From Marinoscillum sp. 108 (GTDB lineage Bacteria > Bacteroidota > Bacteroidia > Cytophagales > Cyclobacteriaceae): a stretch of DNA of 64,000 bases. Every line of letters begins with the position of its first letter. The first letter of the stretch is position 1. The translations under genes and the position numbers were made by a program. Positions 21,575-28,897 of the stretch are shown in pieces. The notes below the pieces were generated by a model. The model was not told where the DNA came from. It was given only the letters and a program-made list of their open reading frames with translations, and made no database searches. The stretch spans positions 1,240,001 to 1,304,000 of the forward strand of contig NZ_LR734808.1 of NCBI RefSeq assembly GCF_902506655.1. The letters run 5' to 3'.

Positions 21575-23506
21575 ATGAACATATATGCCAAGCTCACCCT
21601 TCTCTGTGTCTCTCTAGTCTTTTTCACCTCTTCGGTGCTTTACTTCTTTGTAAACCGGGAACTGGAGCGCACTTTTTCTGAGGAGCTTTTATCCAATGTC
21701 ACCAAACAATCCGAGCAAACCATTTCCAACATAGAGCGGTTCGTCTACTCCAGACTGAATGAACTGAAAATAGCTGCGACCGACCCTTACTTCAGACAAG
21801 ACAACATCTCACAAGCTGACCTCACCCGCAAGTTGCAGGAACTGGAAAGCCTCAATGACCTGTACGCTAGCTTTTCCTTTTTCAACAATGACCGCTTGAG
21901 AATCGCGGATAGTAAGTCACTTTCTGTGGGAAAAACACACTCATTGAGCACTTACTGGACCAAGATATCACCTACTATAGATGCGGTGGTGGATGTAGAC
22001 AGATCAGAATCCACAGAGCTGAATGTAATGAATTTCGCCACTGTGGTGAAGGATCCTGAAACTAGAGAGCCAAAGGGTGTGCTGGTTGGGAGTATTCTGG
22101 TTGACGAGCTCTATAAGTTTATGGGTGACATCTCTCTTGGTGAAAACGAAAGACAGCTGAGTGTAACCCTCCTGGATGAGGGTGGCATCATTCTATACAC
22201 ACAAGACGAGAGCAAGACTGTCCTACAGGACAAATTTGCCGATTTTGACCTGATCCAAAAGGTAAAAAATGCCTCTGCCCGTGTGGAGCGAATCGAGACA
22301 GAAGATCAGTTTCTGTTTGTGGCAAAAGAGCAAGGCTATCTAAACAATGTCGGTAACGACTGGACGCTCGTGGTGAGCATAGGGAAAGAAGAGGCCTTGC
22401 TACCACTTGCCGAAATTCAGAAAAAACTATTGTGGGTGATCTTACTGGCCCTGGGTGCTTCGATCATACTCGCACTGATCGTAGCTAATATTTTCGTGAG
22501 GCCCATCGTAAAACTGAGTAAAATCGCCGAGGATCTGGGTAAGGGGAATCTCTCTGCCGAAATCAAAATCACCTCCAATGATGAGGTAGGCAAGCTCGCT
22601 TCACAACTCTCAAACGCTTCACAGGTGCTGATCAGGCGTCTGGATGAGCAAAAGAAACTAAATGATAAGCTGGAACACCAGAAAAATGAGATGGTCGCTC
22701 AGAAACAATTGCTGGAGCAAGCCAACAGGCAGGTGTCAGACAGTATCATCTATGCCCAAAGAATTCAGCGATCTATTCTACCAGAGATCACTGTCCTCTC
22801 CAAATTAGTGAAGGATGCCTTTGTTTTTTACGAACCAAAAGATGTAGTAAGTGGAGACTTTTACTGGTTTGAGCGGGTCAGACAAGGTAGAAATGAATAC
22901 CTCATCATCGCCTGTGCCGACTGTACTGGCCATGGTGTACCGGGAGCCATCATGTCTATCATGGGGAGTAACCAGCTGACCAACATCGTGTATTATCAAA
23001 ATTACATTGATCCAAATAAGATCCTGGCCCGATTGGACAAGGTTATCAAATTTGAACTGAAGCGTGATGAAAACCAGAACCAGGATGGCCTGGAAATAGG
23101 CATCTGCATCATCAATCTGGACGATCTGAAAATGGAATTTGCCGGAGCGGGGATACCACTTTATCTCATCAAGAAAGGAACCAATGAGCTCATTACATAC
23201 AAGAGCCCTAAGTTTATGATTGGTGGCATAGAGGGTGACGAAAAAGAGGTGGCAGGAAAGCTGAATAAAGAAGAAGTACAGCTGGAAGAAGGTGATAAAA
23301 TTTACCTTTCATCAGATGGCTTTCAAGATCAGTTCGGCGGAGAGCATGATAAGAAGTTCCTAAGTAAAAACTTCAAAAAGCTCATTGAAGACATCTCTGA
23401 AAAACCTATGAGTGATCAAATCAAGGACCTGGAAAATGCCTTTAGATCATGGAAAAAAAATACACCTCAAACAGACGATGTAGTGGTCATCGGTGTTGAG
23501 GTGTAG
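21575..23506 (+). CDS. SiaA-like membrane sensor PP2C phosphatase (Cache-HAMP-SpoIIE)
   Basis: 643 residues from ATG at 21575; an in-frame TTG at 21491 would add an unlikely 28-residue leader. TM1 is at about 6-27, an extracytoplasmic Cache-like sensor at 28-280, TM2 at about 283-305, HAMP at about 305-358, a short coiled coil, and a SpoIIE/PP2C serine phosphatase at about 400-643. All metal-binding motifs are intact: SGDFYW near 426, ADCTGHGVPGA near 447, SSDGF near 578 and TDDVVVIG near 633. This is the architecture of Pseudomonas SiaA, which dephosphorylates SiaC. SiaB- and SiaC-type genes lie 4 kb away at 27398-28375, so the phosphorylated SiaC-like protein is the expected substrate. Confidence 0.9.
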   Translation: MNIYAKLTLLCVSLVFFTSSVLYFFVNRELERTFSEELLSNVTKQSEQTISNIERFVYSRLNELKIAATDPYFRQDNISQADLTRKLQELESLNDLYASFSFFNNDRLRIADSKSLSVGKTHSLSTYWTKISPTIDAVVDVDRSESTELNVMNFATVVKDPETREPKGVLVGSILVDELYKFMGDISLGENERQLSVTLLDEGGIILYTQDESKTVLQDKFADFDLIQKVKNASARVERIETEDQFLFVAKEQGYLNNVGNDWTLVVSIGKEEALLPLAEIQKKLLWVILLALGASIILALIVANIFVRPIVKLSKIAEDLGKGNLSAEIKITSNDEVGKLASQLSNASQVLIRRLDEQKKLNDKLEHQKNEMVAQKQLLEQANRQVSDSIIYAQRIQRSILPEITVLSKLVKDAFVFYEPKDVVSGDFYWFERVRQGRNEYLIIACADCTGHGVPGAIMSIMGSNQLTNIVYYQNYIDPNKILARLDKVIKFELKRDENQNQDGLEIGICIINLDDLKMEFAGAGIPLYLIKKGTNELITYKSPKFMIGGIEGDEKEVAGKLNKEEVQLEEGDKIYLSSDGFQDQFGGEHDKKFLSKNFKKLIEDISEKPMSDQIKDLENAFRSWKKNTPQTDDVVVIGVEV

Positions 23507-23529
23507 TGTAAGTTTAAATCCTATTTCTT

Positions 23530-23778
23530 TCAATACCTGATCAGCAGACTTTCATCTACTGACATCTCATAGAGTGTTTCCAGTGCAGTACTCAGGCTTG
23601 TCAGGAGCTCGGCATCCAGATCCACATCAGGGTCCAAATCCTCCATTTGTTTCAGGTTGTACCCCTTCGCTCGGATCTCATCCACACACTTTAAACATAT
23701 TCGGGTCCAGGACTGAGGACTTATGTTTTCAGTACACCAATTTTTAAAATTGCTTGCCTTTACTTTCATACCGTCCAT
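23530..23778 (-). CDS. Small Cys-containing protein in the HK-RR operon
   Basis: 82 residues, soluble, mostly helical and acidic (DLDPDVDLDAEL). Three cysteines, in WCTEN and ICLKCVDE; the latter is a CxxC that could bind metal or a disulfide partner. It begins 3 bases after the stop of the receiver/PP2C-like gene, so it is probably translationally coupled to it and may modulate that protein. No family recognised. Confidence 0.65.
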   Translation of the reverse strand: MDGMKVKASNFKNWCTENISPQSWTRICLKCVDEIRAKGYNLKQMEDLDPDVDLDAELLTSLSTALETLYEMSVDESLLIRY

Positions 23779-23780
23779 CT

Positions 23781-25025
23781 TTAAAGCTTAAATCCCATAA
23801 TCGAAACATCATCTGTCAGGCCACCCTCTCCTATCCAGTCGTCTATAGTCTGATTCAGGAATTTATACTGCTCACTGAGTGTCTTCTTTTGGATGGATTT
23901 GATCATCTCTTCAAATTTCTCCTGAGAAAATTTCACACCGTCCTGATTTTCCTGATTGAAGTACCCATTGGAGAACATATAGTAGGTAGCATCCTCCTGA
24001 ATCTCAATCTTATCAGCCATCAGGTCATCCACATTCTCCTCAGATTCACCTTCCAACACCACCATTTCCTTTCCATTGAAAATAATCATGTCCTGATTGA
24101 TTCCGCTAAACTGAAGGGTCTTTGCGTTGTTATCAAACAGTGCTACGGAAACCTTAAGGTCGCATTCCAGTTCTTTAGAGCCCGCGGCATCCAGTTCCTG
24201 AGTCAATTCCTTAATAATATCTCCTGAGTGAAAAATCTTCCTGTCCTGGATCAAATCGTTGAGAATAGAATCCGCGATGAGGGTCTTCAGTGATCCCACG
24301 ATTCCTTTCCCATCAAACTCAATAAGGGCTATTACGGTGTAATCTTCTGATCTGAAATTCAAACTTGTCGTCCAGATAAACTCCTCACTAAAGAGGTACT
24401 TGGTACGATACATTACAAAATGCTCAGAAAATATGCGGCTAAGGTAGCGTTCATTTGGAAGCATCGACTGCTGAAGTAGTCCTGCATATCGGATGCTATC
24501 TATCAGCCGCTTGTTGATGCTGTTCAGCTCTTCTGTTCTTTCCTTCACTCTGCGCTCCAACTCCACGTTGGACACCTCTAGCTCCTTGATATGCTCTTCG
24601 CTATCCACAGACTGCTGGTAGGTCTCCATGGCCCTGTCCAGCAGGCCCTTCATTTCATCAAAATTCCAGGGCTTGGTGATGTACTTATATATACCACATC
24701 TGTTGATACCATCTTTGATGGCCTCAATATCTGTAAACCCGGTAAGAATGATCTTGATCACATCAGGATGGTCGGGAAGTATCTTCTCGAGGAACTCCGT
24801 CCCGGTCATCTCAGGCATACGCTGGTCAGTGACCACCACCTGGATTTCATTCTCACTTAGTATATCAATCGCCTCAAAAGGGTTTGTAGTGGTAAACACC
24901 TTGAAAAACTTCCTGAAATTTGACTTAAATACCCTCAGGTTAGTCGCTTCATCGTCTACATAAAGCAGGGAGTATTTTTTCTCACTTCTGGTTGTTATAT
25001 CTGGTGAATCTTGCAGTTCTTCCAT
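23781..25025 (-). CDS. Response regulator with C-terminal degenerate PP2C (SpoIIE-like) domain
   Basis: 414 residues. A receiver at about 18-135 has the acidic pair Asp24/Asp25, phosphoacceptor Asp67 in VVTDQRMP, the ILTGFTD threonine and the YITKPW lysine, all intact. A coiled linker at about 140-180 leads to a SpoIIE-fold domain at about 195-414. Compared with the SiaA-like protein next door, SGDF is SEEF (near 212), ADCTGHG is IEFDGKG (near 234) and SSDG is FSNG (near 350); only TDDV near 402 is kept. Three metal-coordinating aspartates are therefore replaced, so the domain is probably catalytically weak or inactive and acts as a phosphorylation-controlled binding module. It lies 38 bases downstream of its histidine kinase. 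Confidence 0.88.
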   Translation of the reverse strand: MEELQDSPDITTRSEKKYSLLYVDDEATNLRVFKSNFRKFFKVFTTTNPFEAIDILSENEIQVVVTDQRMPEMTGTEFLEKILPDHPDVIKIILTGFTDIEAIKDGINRCGIYKYITKPWNFDEMKGLLDRAMETYQQSVDSEEHIKELEVSNVELERRVKERTEELNSINKRLIDSIRYAGLLQQSMLPNERYLSRIFSEHFVMYRTKYLFSEEFIWTTSLNFRSEDYTVIALIEFDGKGIVGSLKTLIADSILNDLIQDRKIFHSGDIIKELTQELDAAGSKELECDLKVSVALFDNNAKTLQFSGINQDMIIFNGKEMVVLEGESEENVDDLMADKIEIQEDATYYMFSNGYFNQENQDGVKFSQEKFEEMIKSIQKKTLSEQYKFLNQTIDDWIGEGGLTDDVSIMGFKL

Positions 25026-25063
25026 TTCCTAGGGTAGGTAATTAGGTTGATTGTAATTAAAGA

Positions 25064-26965
25064 TTATTTGCTCTCTGCCACTTTCGTGCTCTGATCTTTT
25101 GTCACTTTCTGGATCTTCTTAGGCAAGGTGATCACAAACTCAGTGCCCTTACCTTCTTCACTGGTAAGCTCAATCTTACCGTTGTGCTTTTCGATGATCC
25201 CGTAGGTAATGGACATTCCCAGCCCTGTTCCTACACCCACTGCTTTGGTGGTAAAGAAAGGTTCCCAAATTCTGTTCTTAATCTTTTCAGGAATACCCAC
25301 ACCATTATCCTTAATTCTCACCACAACTTCATTATCCAACTCCTCGGTGTAAATGGTGATCTCTCCGTCTTTGCGCTCCTTCGGTATGGCCTGAATACCA
25401 TTGTTCAGGATATTCATAAATACCTGATTAAGCTGACCAGGATAACATTCTATATCCTTCATCTTCTCATCATAGTACTTAGATACCTTAATGGTATTCT
25501 TGGTTTTATTTCTAAGCAGCGTAAGCGTGGCATCAATGTTCTCATTCACATTGGCTGTTTTAGACTCCTCTTCATCGAGTCTGGAGAATACCCTCAGACC
25601 TTTTACGATTTCTATGGTTCGGGTTACCCCGTAATTTACGTCTTTGATCAGCTCGTCCAACTCTTCGAGGATCTCTTCGTACTCATGCTCTTCTTTGAGT
25701 TCCTTCACGTTCTCAATGACTTCCTCCAGATCCGCACCTTCATCCAGCCTTGAGTATTCTTCGGCAATCTCCCGCATAGATTCGATCGACATCTTGATAG
25801 ATACCATACCACTGGAGATAAAGTTGATAGGGTTGTTGATCTCGTGAGCAATACCCGCTGTAAGCTGCCCCAAAGATGCCATTTTCTCAGAGTGAACAAG
25901 CTGCGACTGTGCATCCTTTAGAGACTGAATAGCCATATTCAGCTCCTCCTTGGACTTCTGTTCCTTTTTCAGAGTCTCCTTAAGTTTCTTCTCCGCAAGG
26001 AAGAGTTTCTCGTTATCCTGCAGTTGCTTATCAGCCAACTCCCTAATTTCTACTTCAGAATCCTGTAATCTCTTATAGGCCTGATTCAATTCATCCTGGG
26101 CTTTGATCAACTTCTCATTGATCCTGATCTGCTCCTCAGATGACTTCAGCAACTTGCTCTCAGACTCTTTTAGTTTCTGGTTATTCAGCTCTATTTCCTT
26201 TCTTGATTCATAGAGTTTCTTGTTAATCAGTTTCTGCTTCTTAAAGTTGATTTTAAGCTCTTCTTCTGATTTTTTCACCTTCACGTAGGCCTTGTTGGCA
26301 GACAGGTAATTATCACCAGCCAACTTCACCAAAGGTCTAAATACAAACAGCCCCTGAAGGAGAAGTATACCAAGGAAAGCAGCGAATACGATTTTCTCCA
26401 CCAGACTGAAACCCGTCTTGTAGGACTGAGCCTCCTGAACAAAATAGTCCGCAATTTTATCCGTTGCTATCTGATATTTTCTAACTGTATTAATAAGAGT
26501 CTCTATGGAACTCCTAAGGGCCAGGTAGTTGATATCCTTCTCGTCCGTGGTATAGACAATGTCCATAAGGTTGCTGGCATTGATATCCATCTGTTCATAG
26601 AAGAACTTCAAGTCCTCCTGAAGCGCCAGATAATCGGAAGACGTAGAAGGAACAGCAAATCCCAGCTCAGGATCTCCGGAGACAAGTGCCTTATGTCCCT
26701 TGCGCCACTCAGGAAGTATTCTTCCTAATTCACTTTGGAAAATAGAGAAGTTTCGTTCAGTACTGGAGTAACCCATACCTACAGCAGTTTTTACGATCTG
26801 CTGTCCCATAGCCGATTGCTTGGAAGCAACCCGTACTATTGTAGGATCCTCATTAAAGTTAGTGATAACATCCTTTTGCACCACAAATATGTAATACGCC
26901 ACAGTACCTGCAACTACCAGGGCTGTAATGGCGTATAGCACAGCATATAGGTCCTTCTTTAGCAT
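25064..26965 (-). CDS. Membrane sensor histidine kinase with long coiled-coil linker
   Basis: 633 residues: TM1 at about 8-28, a helical extracytoplasmic region of about 160 residues (four-helix-bundle like), TM2 at about 193-212, then a very long charged coiled coil at about 225-345. HisKA has the H box EKMASLGQLTAGIAHEINNP (phosphorylated His near 375). HATPase has an N box (MNILNNGIQA), a G1 box (DNGVGIP), an F box (WEPFFTTK) and a G2 box (GTGLGMSITYGI). It is the first gene of an operon with the receiver/PP2C-like protein, its likely phosphotransfer partner. A consensus promoter lies about 100 bases upstream. Confidence 0.92.
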   Translation of the reverse strand: MLKKDLYAVLYAITALVVAGTVAYYIFVVQKDVITNFNEDPTIVRVASKQSAMGQQIVKTAVGMGYSSTERNFSIFQSELGRILPEWRKGHKALVSGDPELGFAVPSTSSDYLALQEDLKFFYEQMDINASNLMDIVYTTDEKDINYLALRSSIETLINTVRKYQIATDKIADYFVQEAQSYKTGFSLVEKIVFAAFLGILLLQGLFVFRPLVKLAGDNYLSANKAYVKVKKSEEELKINFKKQKLINKKLYESRKEIELNNQKLKESESKLLKSSEEQIRINEKLIKAQDELNQAYKRLQDSEVEIRELADKQLQDNEKLFLAEKKLKETLKKEQKSKEELNMAIQSLKDAQSQLVHSEKMASLGQLTAGIAHEINNPINFISSGMVSIKMSIESMREIAEEYSRLDEGADLEEVIENVKELKEEHEYEEILEELDELIKDVNYGVTRTIEIVKGLRVFSRLDEEESKTANVNENIDATLTLLRNKTKNTIKVSKYYDEKMKDIECYPGQLNQVFMNILNNGIQAIPKERKDGEITIYTEELDNEVVVRIKDNGVGIPEKIKNRIWEPFFTTKAVGVGTGLGMSITYGIIEKHNGKIELTSEEGKGTEFVITLPKKIQKVTKDQSTKVAESK

Positions 26966-27064
26966 AATGTATTATCGGTTGGTTGATTTTCAGATTAGTT
27001 TCGCTTACGTCTAAATTTAGTTAAACTTTTAGAATTGTAAATAACAAAATCAAGGTTCACATCC

Positions 27065-27098
27065 CAAAGCTATCTAATTAGAGATTGCGAATAACCAA
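27065..27098 (-). promoter_or_regulatory. Probable promoter of the histidine kinase operon
   Basis: Read on the minus strand: TTG (27098-27096), a 23-base spacer, then TAGCTTTG (27072-27065), an exact TAnnTTTG -7 element. The kinase start at 26965 would have a leader of roughly 90 bases. Confidence 0.5.
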
Positions 27099-27338
27099 TC
27101 CATTCCATTAGAAGTATCACTAAATGAGTCATCTCTACTGGATCATTTGTGATATTTCTACATGCATTTTATCCATAAATTATCATCTACGCAATCTTAA
27201 AATATCTATTTCACTCTTACTTGGTATAAAAATCGACTCAATCAGCATTATATTGCAGTCAATAAGAAATACCCCTCCTTGGCAATTAGCAGCACTTTGG
27301 GGAAATACCTTTTATAAATATTTTAAGTAATTAAACAT

Positions 27339-27378
27339 TTGGTTTAATCCGCAAATAGTAATTACTTTTCAAAAGTAA
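27339..27378 (+). promoter_or_regulatory. Possible siaB promoter with overlapping palindromic operator
   Basis: TTG at 27339-27341, a 21-base gap, then TACTTTTC at 27363-27370 (7 of 8 to TAnnTTTG). The -7 region is embedded in a perfect palindrome TTACTTTT-C-AAAAGTAA (27362-27378). The siaB ATG is 20 bases downstream. The geometry suits a repressor that covers the -7 element. Confidence 0.4.
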
Positions 27379-27397
27379 AATAATCACAATATCAAGT

Positions 27398-27958
27398 ATG
27401 GATTATCTTAGAAGTTATAAGAATATATATGATCAAAATATAATTTTGATGTACAAAGGGGAATTGACCTTTGACTTAGTAACTTCGATGATTGCGACAC
27501 TTGAAGAAAGACTAGAAGAACTTGAGGAGAATCGGAAAGTGAAAAAGAAATTTTACAACGTGGCTACTGAGTGCATTCAAAATCTGTATTATCACCTCGA
27601 TGAGGTCAATGCGGATGAGATCAGAATAAGTAGCTATGACTCCAGATCTGCCCTGATTCTGATAGCCGCGCGAAAGAGGTTTTACAGTTTACAGACAGGT
27701 AACTATATCCCTACTGAAAGGACAGCAGAGATACAGCAAAGACTGGATGATATTAACGCTGTGGAACCGGAGGAGTTGAGAACTCTCTACAAGAAGGCGT
27801 TAAATGAGCAGGAGTTTTCCGACAAAGGAACAGGAGGACTCGGGTTCATTGATATCGCCAGAAAAACAGGAGGACAAAAATTAAGATATAAATTTCAACC
27901 AGTTACTGACAATGTATCTTATTTTACATTGCAGGTAAGATTGCCTAGAGATGTATAG
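27398..27958 (+). CDS. siaB: SiaB-family protein kinase
   Basis: 186 residues. It matches the SiaB (DUF6272) family, a GHKL-fold kinase that phosphorylates SiaC. An N-box-like helix NVATECIQNLYYH carries the E-x3-N arrangement, and the segment DKGTGGLGFIDIARKTG is the glycine-rich nucleotide lid. No transmembrane segment, so it is cytosolic. In Pseudomonas aeruginosa, SiaB opposes the phosphatase SiaA. Here a SiaA-like phosphatase is at 21575 and the siaC homologue starts 33 bases downstream. The symbol is used at family level; function in this organism is inferred. Confidence 0.85.
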   Translation: MDYLRSYKNIYDQNIILMYKGELTFDLVTSMIATLEERLEELEENRKVKKKFYNVATECIQNLYYHLDEVNADEIRISSYDSRSALILIAARKRFYSLQTGNYIPTERTAEIQQRLDDINAVEPEELRTLYKKALNEQEFSDKGTGGLGFIDIARKTGGQKLRYKFQPVTDNVSYFTLQVRLPRDV

Positions 27959-27991
27959 GCAGAACAAGCAGATAAAGCTCTGAATAACCTT

Positions 27992-28375
27992 ATGGAAAAG
28001 ATTTTTATTGAGCCAACACGGGTTACTCCATTAGTGAATTTCGATCCCGATGAAGGATTACTTGAGATCAAAGGACGATCAAGCCCGGAGAATTCTATAC
28101 TTTTCTATCAAAAGATCATTGATAACCTGGATGAGTATATCCAAAGTGATTTGACTGATTTTAAAGCAAATTTTTCTTTTGAATACTTTAATACTAGCTC
28201 ATCCAAGTGTTTGTTTGATGTATTTAAGCGATTGAGCCGAATAGAAGAATCCGGCAAAGGCTTAACAATTAACTGGTACTATGAAGAAGATGACGAGGAC
28301 ATGATGGAAGCAGGAGAAGATTATGCAGACCTATTAGATCTTGAATTCAATTTTCTGGAAATCGAAGAATTCTAA
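27992..28375 (+). CDS. siaC: SiaC-family regulatory phosphoprotein (DUF1987)
   Basis: 127 residues, acidic. The N-terminus IEPTRVTPLVNFDPDEGLLE and the later FEYFNTSSSKCLFDVFKRL are the DUF1987/SiaC hallmarks. Thr68 lies in FNTSSSK and matches, in both number and context, the threonine that SiaB phosphorylates in the Pseudomonas protein. There the unphosphorylated form binds and activates the diguanylate cyclase SiaD. No GGDEF gene is present in this window, so the output partner here is unknown; the neighbouring membrane coiled-coil protein is a candidate. Second gene of the siaB operon. Confidence 0.87.
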   Translation: MEKIFIEPTRVTPLVNFDPDEGLLEIKGRSSPENSILFYQKIIDNLDEYIQSDLTDFKANFSFEYFNTSSSKCLFDVFKRLSRIEESGKGLTINWYYEEDDEDMMEAGEDYADLLDLEFNFLEIEEF

Positions 28376-28387
28376 GGATCTAGTCTT

Positions 28388-28897
28388 ATGGAAGGACCCA
28401 AAGAGCTTTATCATGAAGAAATAAAGAAACTCAAAGATTTCAGGGTAAGGCTGGATACTCATGCCATTTATAAAAAAGACCTTGAGGACTTCTCTGATGA
28501 TTATGAAGACCTGGTGGCTCAAGCCAAAGTAATCACCCGGGTATCCGACAGACTCCAGAAAAAACTCGATAATGCCAACATCCAGATCCGTGAGCAAAAT
28601 GACGAGATCAAGGATAAGAATCTGGAGCTGGAAAAAACAATTAAAGACCTGGCTGAAGCGAAAGTAGGTAGAAAAGCCTCTACCATCATGTTTACTTTGG
28701 CTATCATCCTCTTCCTTTCAGAAGAATTTTTCTTAGAAGACATTATTGAATCGAATGTGTCCATCCCCTACGTGGACCTCATGGCCAAGGGCCTTATCGC
28801 CATTATTCTTAAGTTTTTCGAATCTGGCCTCGAGTCTTTCTTCCTCAACCAGGAGAAAAGAAAAATTATCAAGCAGGAAAAATCTTCCAACAGCTAA
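28388..28897 (+). CDS. Membrane-anchored coiled-coil protein of the siaBC operon
   Basis: 169 residues. The first ~90 are a charged coiled coil (AKVITRVSDRLQKKLDNA... with many K/E/D repeats). Two hydrophobic segments follow, at about 97-114 (ASTIMFTLAIILFLSEEF) and about 128-150 (MAKGLIAIILKFFES), and then a short basic tail. It starts 12 bases after siaC. No known family. The position suggests a membrane docking or effector partner for SiaC, replacing the diguanylate cyclase of the Pseudomonas system. That is inference from context only. Confidence 0.7.
   Translation: MEGPKELYHEEIKKLKDFRVRLDTHAIYKKDLEDFSDDYEDLVAQAKVITRVSDRLQKKLDNANIQIREQNDEIKDKNLELEKTIKDLAEAKVGRKASTIMFTLAIILFLSEEFFLEDIIESNVSIPYVDLMAKGLIAIILKFFESGLESFFLNQEKRKIIKQEKSSNS

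Follow-up and report, generated by a model that had tools for sequence, protein, structure and literature searches.

A SiaABC-type partner-switch locus in Marinoscillum with a putative membrane-hairpin output in place of a diguanylate cyclase

We analysed a 64,000-nucleotide stretch of the genome of Marinoscillum sp. 108 (GCF_902506655.1, NZ_LR734808.1:1,240,001-1,304,000; hereafter the window), in which the locus at positions 21575-28897 holds relatives of the phosphatase SiaA, the protein kinase SiaB and the phosphoprotein SiaC of Pseudomonas aeruginosa. The locus reads as a SiaABC partner switch with an exchanged output, and the product of the gene that follows siaC appears to be the likeliest SiaC target; on the sequence evidence laid out below, we give this reading a probability of roughly 0.78. 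The putative target joins a docking helix resembling that of the SiaD stalk to a membrane hairpin, which occupies the place of the GGDEF domain in SiaD. The features concerned are as follows.

21575-23506, plus strand: SiaA-like sensor phosphatase, dCache-HAMP-SpoIIE/PP2C (Pfam dCache_1, HAMP and SpoIIE above cut-off)
27398-27958, plus strand: SiaB-family protein kinase, DUF6272 (PF19788, 111.2 bits; cut-off 26.6)
27992-28375, plus strand: SiaC phosphoprotein (PF09345, 136.8 bits; cut-off 24.5)
28388-28897, plus strand: proposed SiaC target of 169 residues, docking helix plus membrane hairpin (profiles, motif, AlphaFold2)
28403-28612, plus strand: predicted SiaC-docking module, residues 6-75 (alignment A3)
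28532-28558, plus strand: docking core motif ITRVSDRLQ, residues 49-57 (ungapped equivalence to SiaD V78-Q86)
28622-28873, plus strand: membrane hairpin module, residues 79-162, with two hydrophobic segments (alignment A4, hydropathy, search of 291 genomes of the order)

A SiaD-type docking motif after siaC

In P. aeruginosa, the SiaD stalk is reported to have two motifs to which SiaC binds, with SiaC Thr68 contacting Ser82 and Gln86 (PMC8457831). The window motif ITRVSDRLQ matches the stalk sequence VARISDRYQ, including the Ser and Gln positions reported to contact Thr68. The SiaD contacts R80, S82, D83, R84 and Q86 are identical in the window helix, V78 and I81 are conservatively replaced, and the spacing from an upstream Tyr to the motif is the same (Y68 in SiaD, Y39 in the window protein). 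One docking motif is visible in the window protein; against the docking profile, the second SiaD motif also gave a weak score. On the other side of the proposed interface, SiaC Thr68 (codon 28193-28195) stands in an N-T-S context, and alignment of the window SiaC with its P. aeruginosa counterpart (6kko) needs no gaps and keeps Thr68. AlphaFold2 modelled the 28388-28897 protein as helices 9-23, 29-123 and 127-168 (mean predicted local distance difference test score (pLDDT) 79.8, predicted template-modelling score 0.38). No family of Pfam or NCBIfam matched the protein above its cut-off, phmmer against the PDB gave nothing meaningful, and Foldseek of the model gave no match at an expectation value (E) of 0.001 or better.

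Profile searches linked the docking helix and the SiaD stalk in both directions. Profile A1 was built from 21 docking-hairpin proteins, and A2 from 43 non-redundant proteobacterial SiaD stalks taken from 80 fetched SiaC loci, 79 of which hold a GGDEF open reading frame (ORF) by the filter used. A wider docking profile, A3, was built after intermediates had been found, and not through SiaC. Against 1036 ORFs of 41 Bacteroidota loci, A2 gave the first 12 places to docking-hairpin proteins (E 0.00093-0.15), and place 13 (L061, E 0.56) was out of register. In the reverse direction, all 60 A1 matches listed among 2161 proteobacterial-locus ORFs carry GG[DE]EF, with SiaD ranked first. The first 80 of 82 A3 matches among such ORFs are likewise GG[DE]EF ORFs, against E 5.7 for the best other ORF and 0.18 for the top reversed decoy. 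When A3 was searched against the PDB (177,635 sequences), the best match was SiaD (7e6g, E 9.8e-5). Among 5117 locus ORFs there were 21 docking matches with the next at E 0.28, a gap that exists partly by construction, 16 of the 21 being in the profile or the same gene. Whole-genome searches scored a limited number of candidates in each genome (for example 14 of 26), and misses are possible; the A2 search of 59 genomes listed 14 matches with E no higher than 1, spread over 12 genomes, and one match is a docking helix on a histidine-kinase-like protein (L189).

Linkage of the docking gene to SiaC

The window protein, used as a query, found matches in 24 of 59 related genomes. Docking helix and hairpin occur together in 22 proteins from 20 of these relatives, and 20 of the 22 proteins are either fused to SiaC or separated from it by no more than 168 bp; the remaining proteins are one beside SiaB only (L223) and one unlinked (L226). 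No docking-hairpin protein was found in the 14 related genomes without SiaC. In one genome SiaC, docking helix and hairpin form a single ORF (L093), and other fusions join SiaB to SiaC (L070) and PP2C to DUF6272 (L237).

The association extends over the phylum. Across 395 genomes, A3 found at least 29 docking proteins in at least 18 genomes, and SiaC was present in at least 22, both counts being lower bounds; 17 genomes have both. Sequences in A3 came from 6 of the 18 docking genomes, and 11 of the other 12 have SiaC. SiaC adjoins 19 of the 29 docking proteins. Over the loci scanned for docking cores, many of which had been fetched through SiaC, 47 of 65 distinct docking cores have SiaC within 300 bp.

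No diguanylate cyclase in the genome

The original prediction, made from the sequence alone, had reported no GGDEF gene in the window and had suggested a different output. The absence extends to the whole genome (99.72% complete; 0 matches), in a search whose control matched 8 of 14 named genomes, and the suggestion of a different output is borne out to the extent that this genome without GGDEF carries, after siaC, a SiaD-type docking motif on a membrane hairpin. The possibility of a SiaD elsewhere in this genome, which would have spoken against that suggestion, was rejected (0 GGDEF, 4 candidates scored). Among the 59 related genomes (own included), GGDEF matched in two, each time partially (81 or 64 of 161 model positions), and only one of the two (G020) also carries SiaC. 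SiaC is found in 45 of the 59 genomes and a DUF6272 match in 44, 43 of them above the cut-off. A distant SiaD is unlikely because the genome has no GGDEF and partial matches occur in only two of the 59.

Probable exchangeable outputs on the docking helix

Over 198 genomes of the phylum, A1 found proteins that match only its first 90 positions and are joined to other domains. Pfam identified these as GGDEF (L241, L243), class III cyclase (L239, L244), HisKA-HATPase (L240) and SpoIIE/PP2C (L242). The 29 phylum docking proteins comprise 11 histidine kinases, 7 cyclases, 4 GGDEF proteins (one, L252, interrupted), 2 PP2C proteins, 2 hairpins (window included) and 3 stand-alone helices, as classed from the locus listing, with Pfam run on 16 proteins. 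The ~70-residue docking helix itself has no Pfam or NCBIfam name, as far as tested.

We consider it reasonably probable that SiaC is a general phospho-switched adaptor, and that the docking helix wires the SiaABC circuit to interchangeable outputs (GGDEF, class III nucleotide cyclase, histidine kinase, PP2C, stand-alone helix or two-segment membrane hairpin), the hairpin being itself a shared membrane output. A recognisable docking helix would yield, for each SiaC locus, a prediction of which protein is bound and through which residues. If correct, this arrangement would explain why bacteria without cyclic di-GMP enzymes retain and multiply SiaC (8 copies here).

The stand-alone docking helices are 77-85 residues long and lie directly after SiaC (L260:1474-1728, L261:1495-1725, L262:1465-1719); they could be adaptors or competitors. 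Separately, wherever a locus holds a ~1150-residue SiaA together with SiaB and SiaC (9 of 9: L053, L072, L073, L076, L077, L232-L235), SiaC is followed by a conserved ABC-transporter-like gene of ~1000 codons (family assigned by eye). The product of this gene gave no docking match and is possibly another SiaC output.

The membrane hairpin

Hydropathy places the two hydrophobic stretches of the window protein near residues 97-120 and 122-153. Within the order, hairpin profile A4, built from 22 sequences with invariant L, A and E, found matches in 51 of 291 genomes. At 30 hairpin loci, a docking helix precedes 27 hairpins, and SiaC is present in the locus of 23 of these 27. Hairpins also follow receivers (L097, L099, L103, L312, L313), TPR repeats (L238, L297, L299) and, as weaker matches, Reg_prop/Y_Y_Y propeller sensors (L304, L306, L309, L310). 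Because of this position after receiver, TPR, propeller and docking modules, we read the hairpin as a candidate membrane output module of several signalling classes, and the pattern points to an unnamed output domain common to them. In the four propeller proteins, the hairpin sits where a histidine kinase would be expected.

Locus layout and the kinase/receiver pair

Pfam and NCBIfam support the SiaA-like Cache-HAMP-PP2C phosphatase, the SiaB kinase and SiaC that had originally been read in the locus, and the phosphorylation site named at the time, Thr68 in FNTSSSK, was correct. The catalytic motifs of SiaA (SGD, ADCTGHG, SDG and TDD) are all intact; its longest ORF opens at TTG 21491, upstream of 21575. 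SiaA scored 210.4 bits against the NCBIfam SiaA model, below the equivalog cut-off of 700. SiaB scored 129.3 bits in NCBIfam subfamily NF038262 (cut-off 85), and the equivalog cut-offs were not reached by SiaB (53.3 of 225) or SiaC (79.6 of 150 bits). Also present, as claimed, are a histidine kinase and a receiver-degenerate PP2C protein between siaA and siaB (Pfam; motif reading).

23781-25025, minus strand: receiver (Asp67) fused to degenerate PP2C (Pfam Response_reg and SpoIIE)
25064-26965, minus strand: membrane histidine kinase (His374 in HEINNP; HATPase_c above cut-off, HisKA below cut-off)

Two uncharacterised proteins had been counted in the span, which holds only one (28388-28897). 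The genes of the proposed joint SiaABC and two-component module are all there; the tight same-strand run comprises only SiaB, SiaC and the 28388-28897 gene, with gaps of 33 and 12 bp. The kinase and receiver genes form a run of their own on the opposite strand, the kinase gene 38 bp upstream of the receiver gene, and diverge from siaB over 432 bp; siaA is set apart, convergent with the receiver gene. Promoter and terminator scans gave chance numbers only (8 found against 8.0 expected, and 1 against 1.1).

The receiver Asp67 and kinase His374 are kept. In the PP2C part of the receiver protein, SGD has become SEE, ADCTGHG has become IEFDGKG and SDG has become SNG, with the final DD kept. The result is the loss of three acidic active-site positions, which hold the metal ions in PP2C phosphatases: two Asp are replaced by Glu and one by Asn, and this holds for 6 of 6 genus orthologues; the same positions are intact in the SiaA of the locus and in three other receiver-PP2C proteins. 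The domain matches the NCBIfam SiaA model at E 2.9e-33. The best structural matches of the modelled receiver protein (pLDDT 80.4) were RssB (3eq2, 8t85) and the SiaA PP2C structure 6k4e, the latter with a template-modelling (TM) score of 0.82 by target length. RssB likewise has a receiver followed by a PP2C-fold domain, and in E. coli it is a non-catalytic sigma-S adaptor; the receiver and degenerate PP2C fold of the window protein agree with an RssB-like adaptor, and its PP2C part differs in being closer to SiaA and in lying at a locus linked to SiaB and SiaC. The receiver protein is probably unable to dephosphorylate SiaC, because its phosphatase domain looks inactive; judged by its motifs, the degenerate PP2C probably binds rather than dephosphorylates, and the whole protein would be a phosphorylation-gated pseudo-phosphatase. 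The histidine kinase was also considered as a SiaC target and rejected, the docking motif pattern not being found in it (pattern test only).

Orthologues of the receiver protein (83-87% identity) are present in five other genomes of the genus. Kinase, receiver protein and SiaB stand together in 6 of 6 genus genomes. In 5 of them SiaC and the docking gene come next; in the other one (G005), the contig stops about 260 bp beyond siaB. At the loci retrieved from other genera, no docking gene was seen with a receiver-PP2C gene next to it. The pair is a genus-level addition to the SiaABC locus. A link between His-Asp and Ser/Thr phosphorylation, also part of the original prediction, is plausible given the pair beside siaB throughout the genus, but weaker than the output claim given the inactive-looking phosphatase domain and the narrow distribution. 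One genus genome (G003) has a second locus with SiaC, a histidine kinase and a receiver-PP2C protein with intact catalytic motifs (L217:7062-11036).

Proposed mechanism

Gene content, motif, two-way profile match, linkage and PP2C residue loss are read in the sequence itself; from them we infer binding, the direction of control and the effect on the hairpin. SiaB would phosphorylate SiaC at Thr68, and SiaA, once its periplasmic Cache domain detects a signal, would strip this phosphate. In its unphosphorylated state SiaC would bind the docking helix of the 28388-28897 protein, much as on the Pseudomonas SiaD stalk, with Thr68 meeting Ser53 and Gln57. Binding may re-arrange or dimerise the two-segment hairpin, instead of pairing GGDEF domains, and the hairpin would be an output module that is under the control of receivers, TPR domains or propeller sensors in other proteins of the order. 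A genus-specific second input may come from the divergent histidine kinase and receiver/pseudo-PP2C protein, the pseudo-PP2C probably acting as an RssB-like adaptor that binds SiaC or SiaC-phosphate and does not cleave it.

Alternative explanations

Several results weigh against the 28388-28897 protein as SiaC target. SiaD residues K77, Y85, M88, R90 and D91 are not kept in its docking helix. On the SiaC side, only Y65, N67, T68 and S69 of the 14 reported contacts are identical, E110 is Asp, and nine, including most outer contacts, differ. A1 placed SiaD only fourth in the PDB (E 0.75), hhalign of A1 against A2 gave a probability of 48% (P 0.00019), and the window protein was not among the matches listed for A2 over the 59 whole genomes. 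The 80 SiaD matches are close relatives, not 80 independent tests. In the phylum, 10 of the 29 docking proteins lack a SiaC gene in the nearest 1.5 kb or so, one genome (G335) has a docking protein and no SiaC match, and 5 of 22 SiaC genomes have no docking match. SiaC might then act elsewhere, for example on the histidine kinase, the receiver or a sigma-factor regulator, the next gene merely resembling the SiaD stalk as a coiled coil. Coiled coils do yield spurious matches, and the ABC-transporter-like gene offers an alternative SiaC-linked partner. We regard this explanation as quite improbable: the docking match holds against a PDB rich in coiled coils, reversed decoys and ORFs of the same loci, the contact residues are in register, and the docking module is found beside SiaC and fused to known signalling outputs.

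Two further alternatives concern the kinase/receiver pair. That the receiver-PP2C protein is still an active phosphatase, which with the histidine kinase sets SiaC phosphorylation directly, would fit the retained final DD, the SiaA-like modelled fold and the existence of intact receiver-PP2C proteins, one of them beside a histidine kinase and SiaC in G003. The replacement of three acidic positions in every genus orthologue, set against their retention in SiaA and the three other receiver-PP2C proteins, makes it highly improbable. It is rather unlikely that the pair is an unrelated neighbour placed by chance between siaA and siaB, as its opposite strand and its absence next to the docking gene at loci retrieved from other genera could suggest; gene order is kept in all six genus genomes, the PP2C part matches both the SiaA model and 6k4e, and G003 has a second such pair beside SiaC.

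Relation to known systems and other SiaC genes

The window locus shares with P. aeruginosa SiaABCD, as described in PMC8457831 and PMC7647112, a Cache-HAMP-PP2C phosphatase, a DUF6272 kinase, a DUF1987/SiaC protein with Thr68 and a target with a SiaC-binding helix (proposed here) encoded directly after siaC. It differs in that it has no GGDEF, its putative target ends in a membrane hairpin and shows one visible docking motif rather than two, siaA is separated, and a histidine kinase and a receiver/pseudo-PP2C protein are added. In the HptB-HsbR-HsbA-HsbD system, as may hold here, one receiver and PP2C protein ties a His-Asp phosphorelay to a partner switch. Such a link would be of a known kind, because HsbR joins receiver, PP2C and kinase (PMC6482189). 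HsbR has its own kinase domain, whereas Pfam found none in the window receiver protein, whose PP2C is degenerate and whose kinase is separate (SiaB).

DUF1987 proteins have been suggested to modulate adjacent proteins, as demonstrated for one cyclase (PMC8457831). We found no account of exchangeable SiaC outputs in the literature searched, whose coverage mostly excluded subscription journals. Within these searches, neither a docking module that takes exchangeable outputs nor the membrane hairpin is described; the families themselves are known.

The Marinoscillum genome encodes 8 SiaC and 2 SiaB proteins. Three tandem SiaC paralogues keep N-T-[GS]-T (L039:8274-10474; C1:2660351-2662455), and no SiaB was seen beside them in that locus. 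Four SiaC-like paralogues elsewhere (L038:7688-11295; C1:1845735-1849252) are without the N-T-S Thr motif and alternate with similar proteins of ~150 residues that have a signal-peptide-like start.

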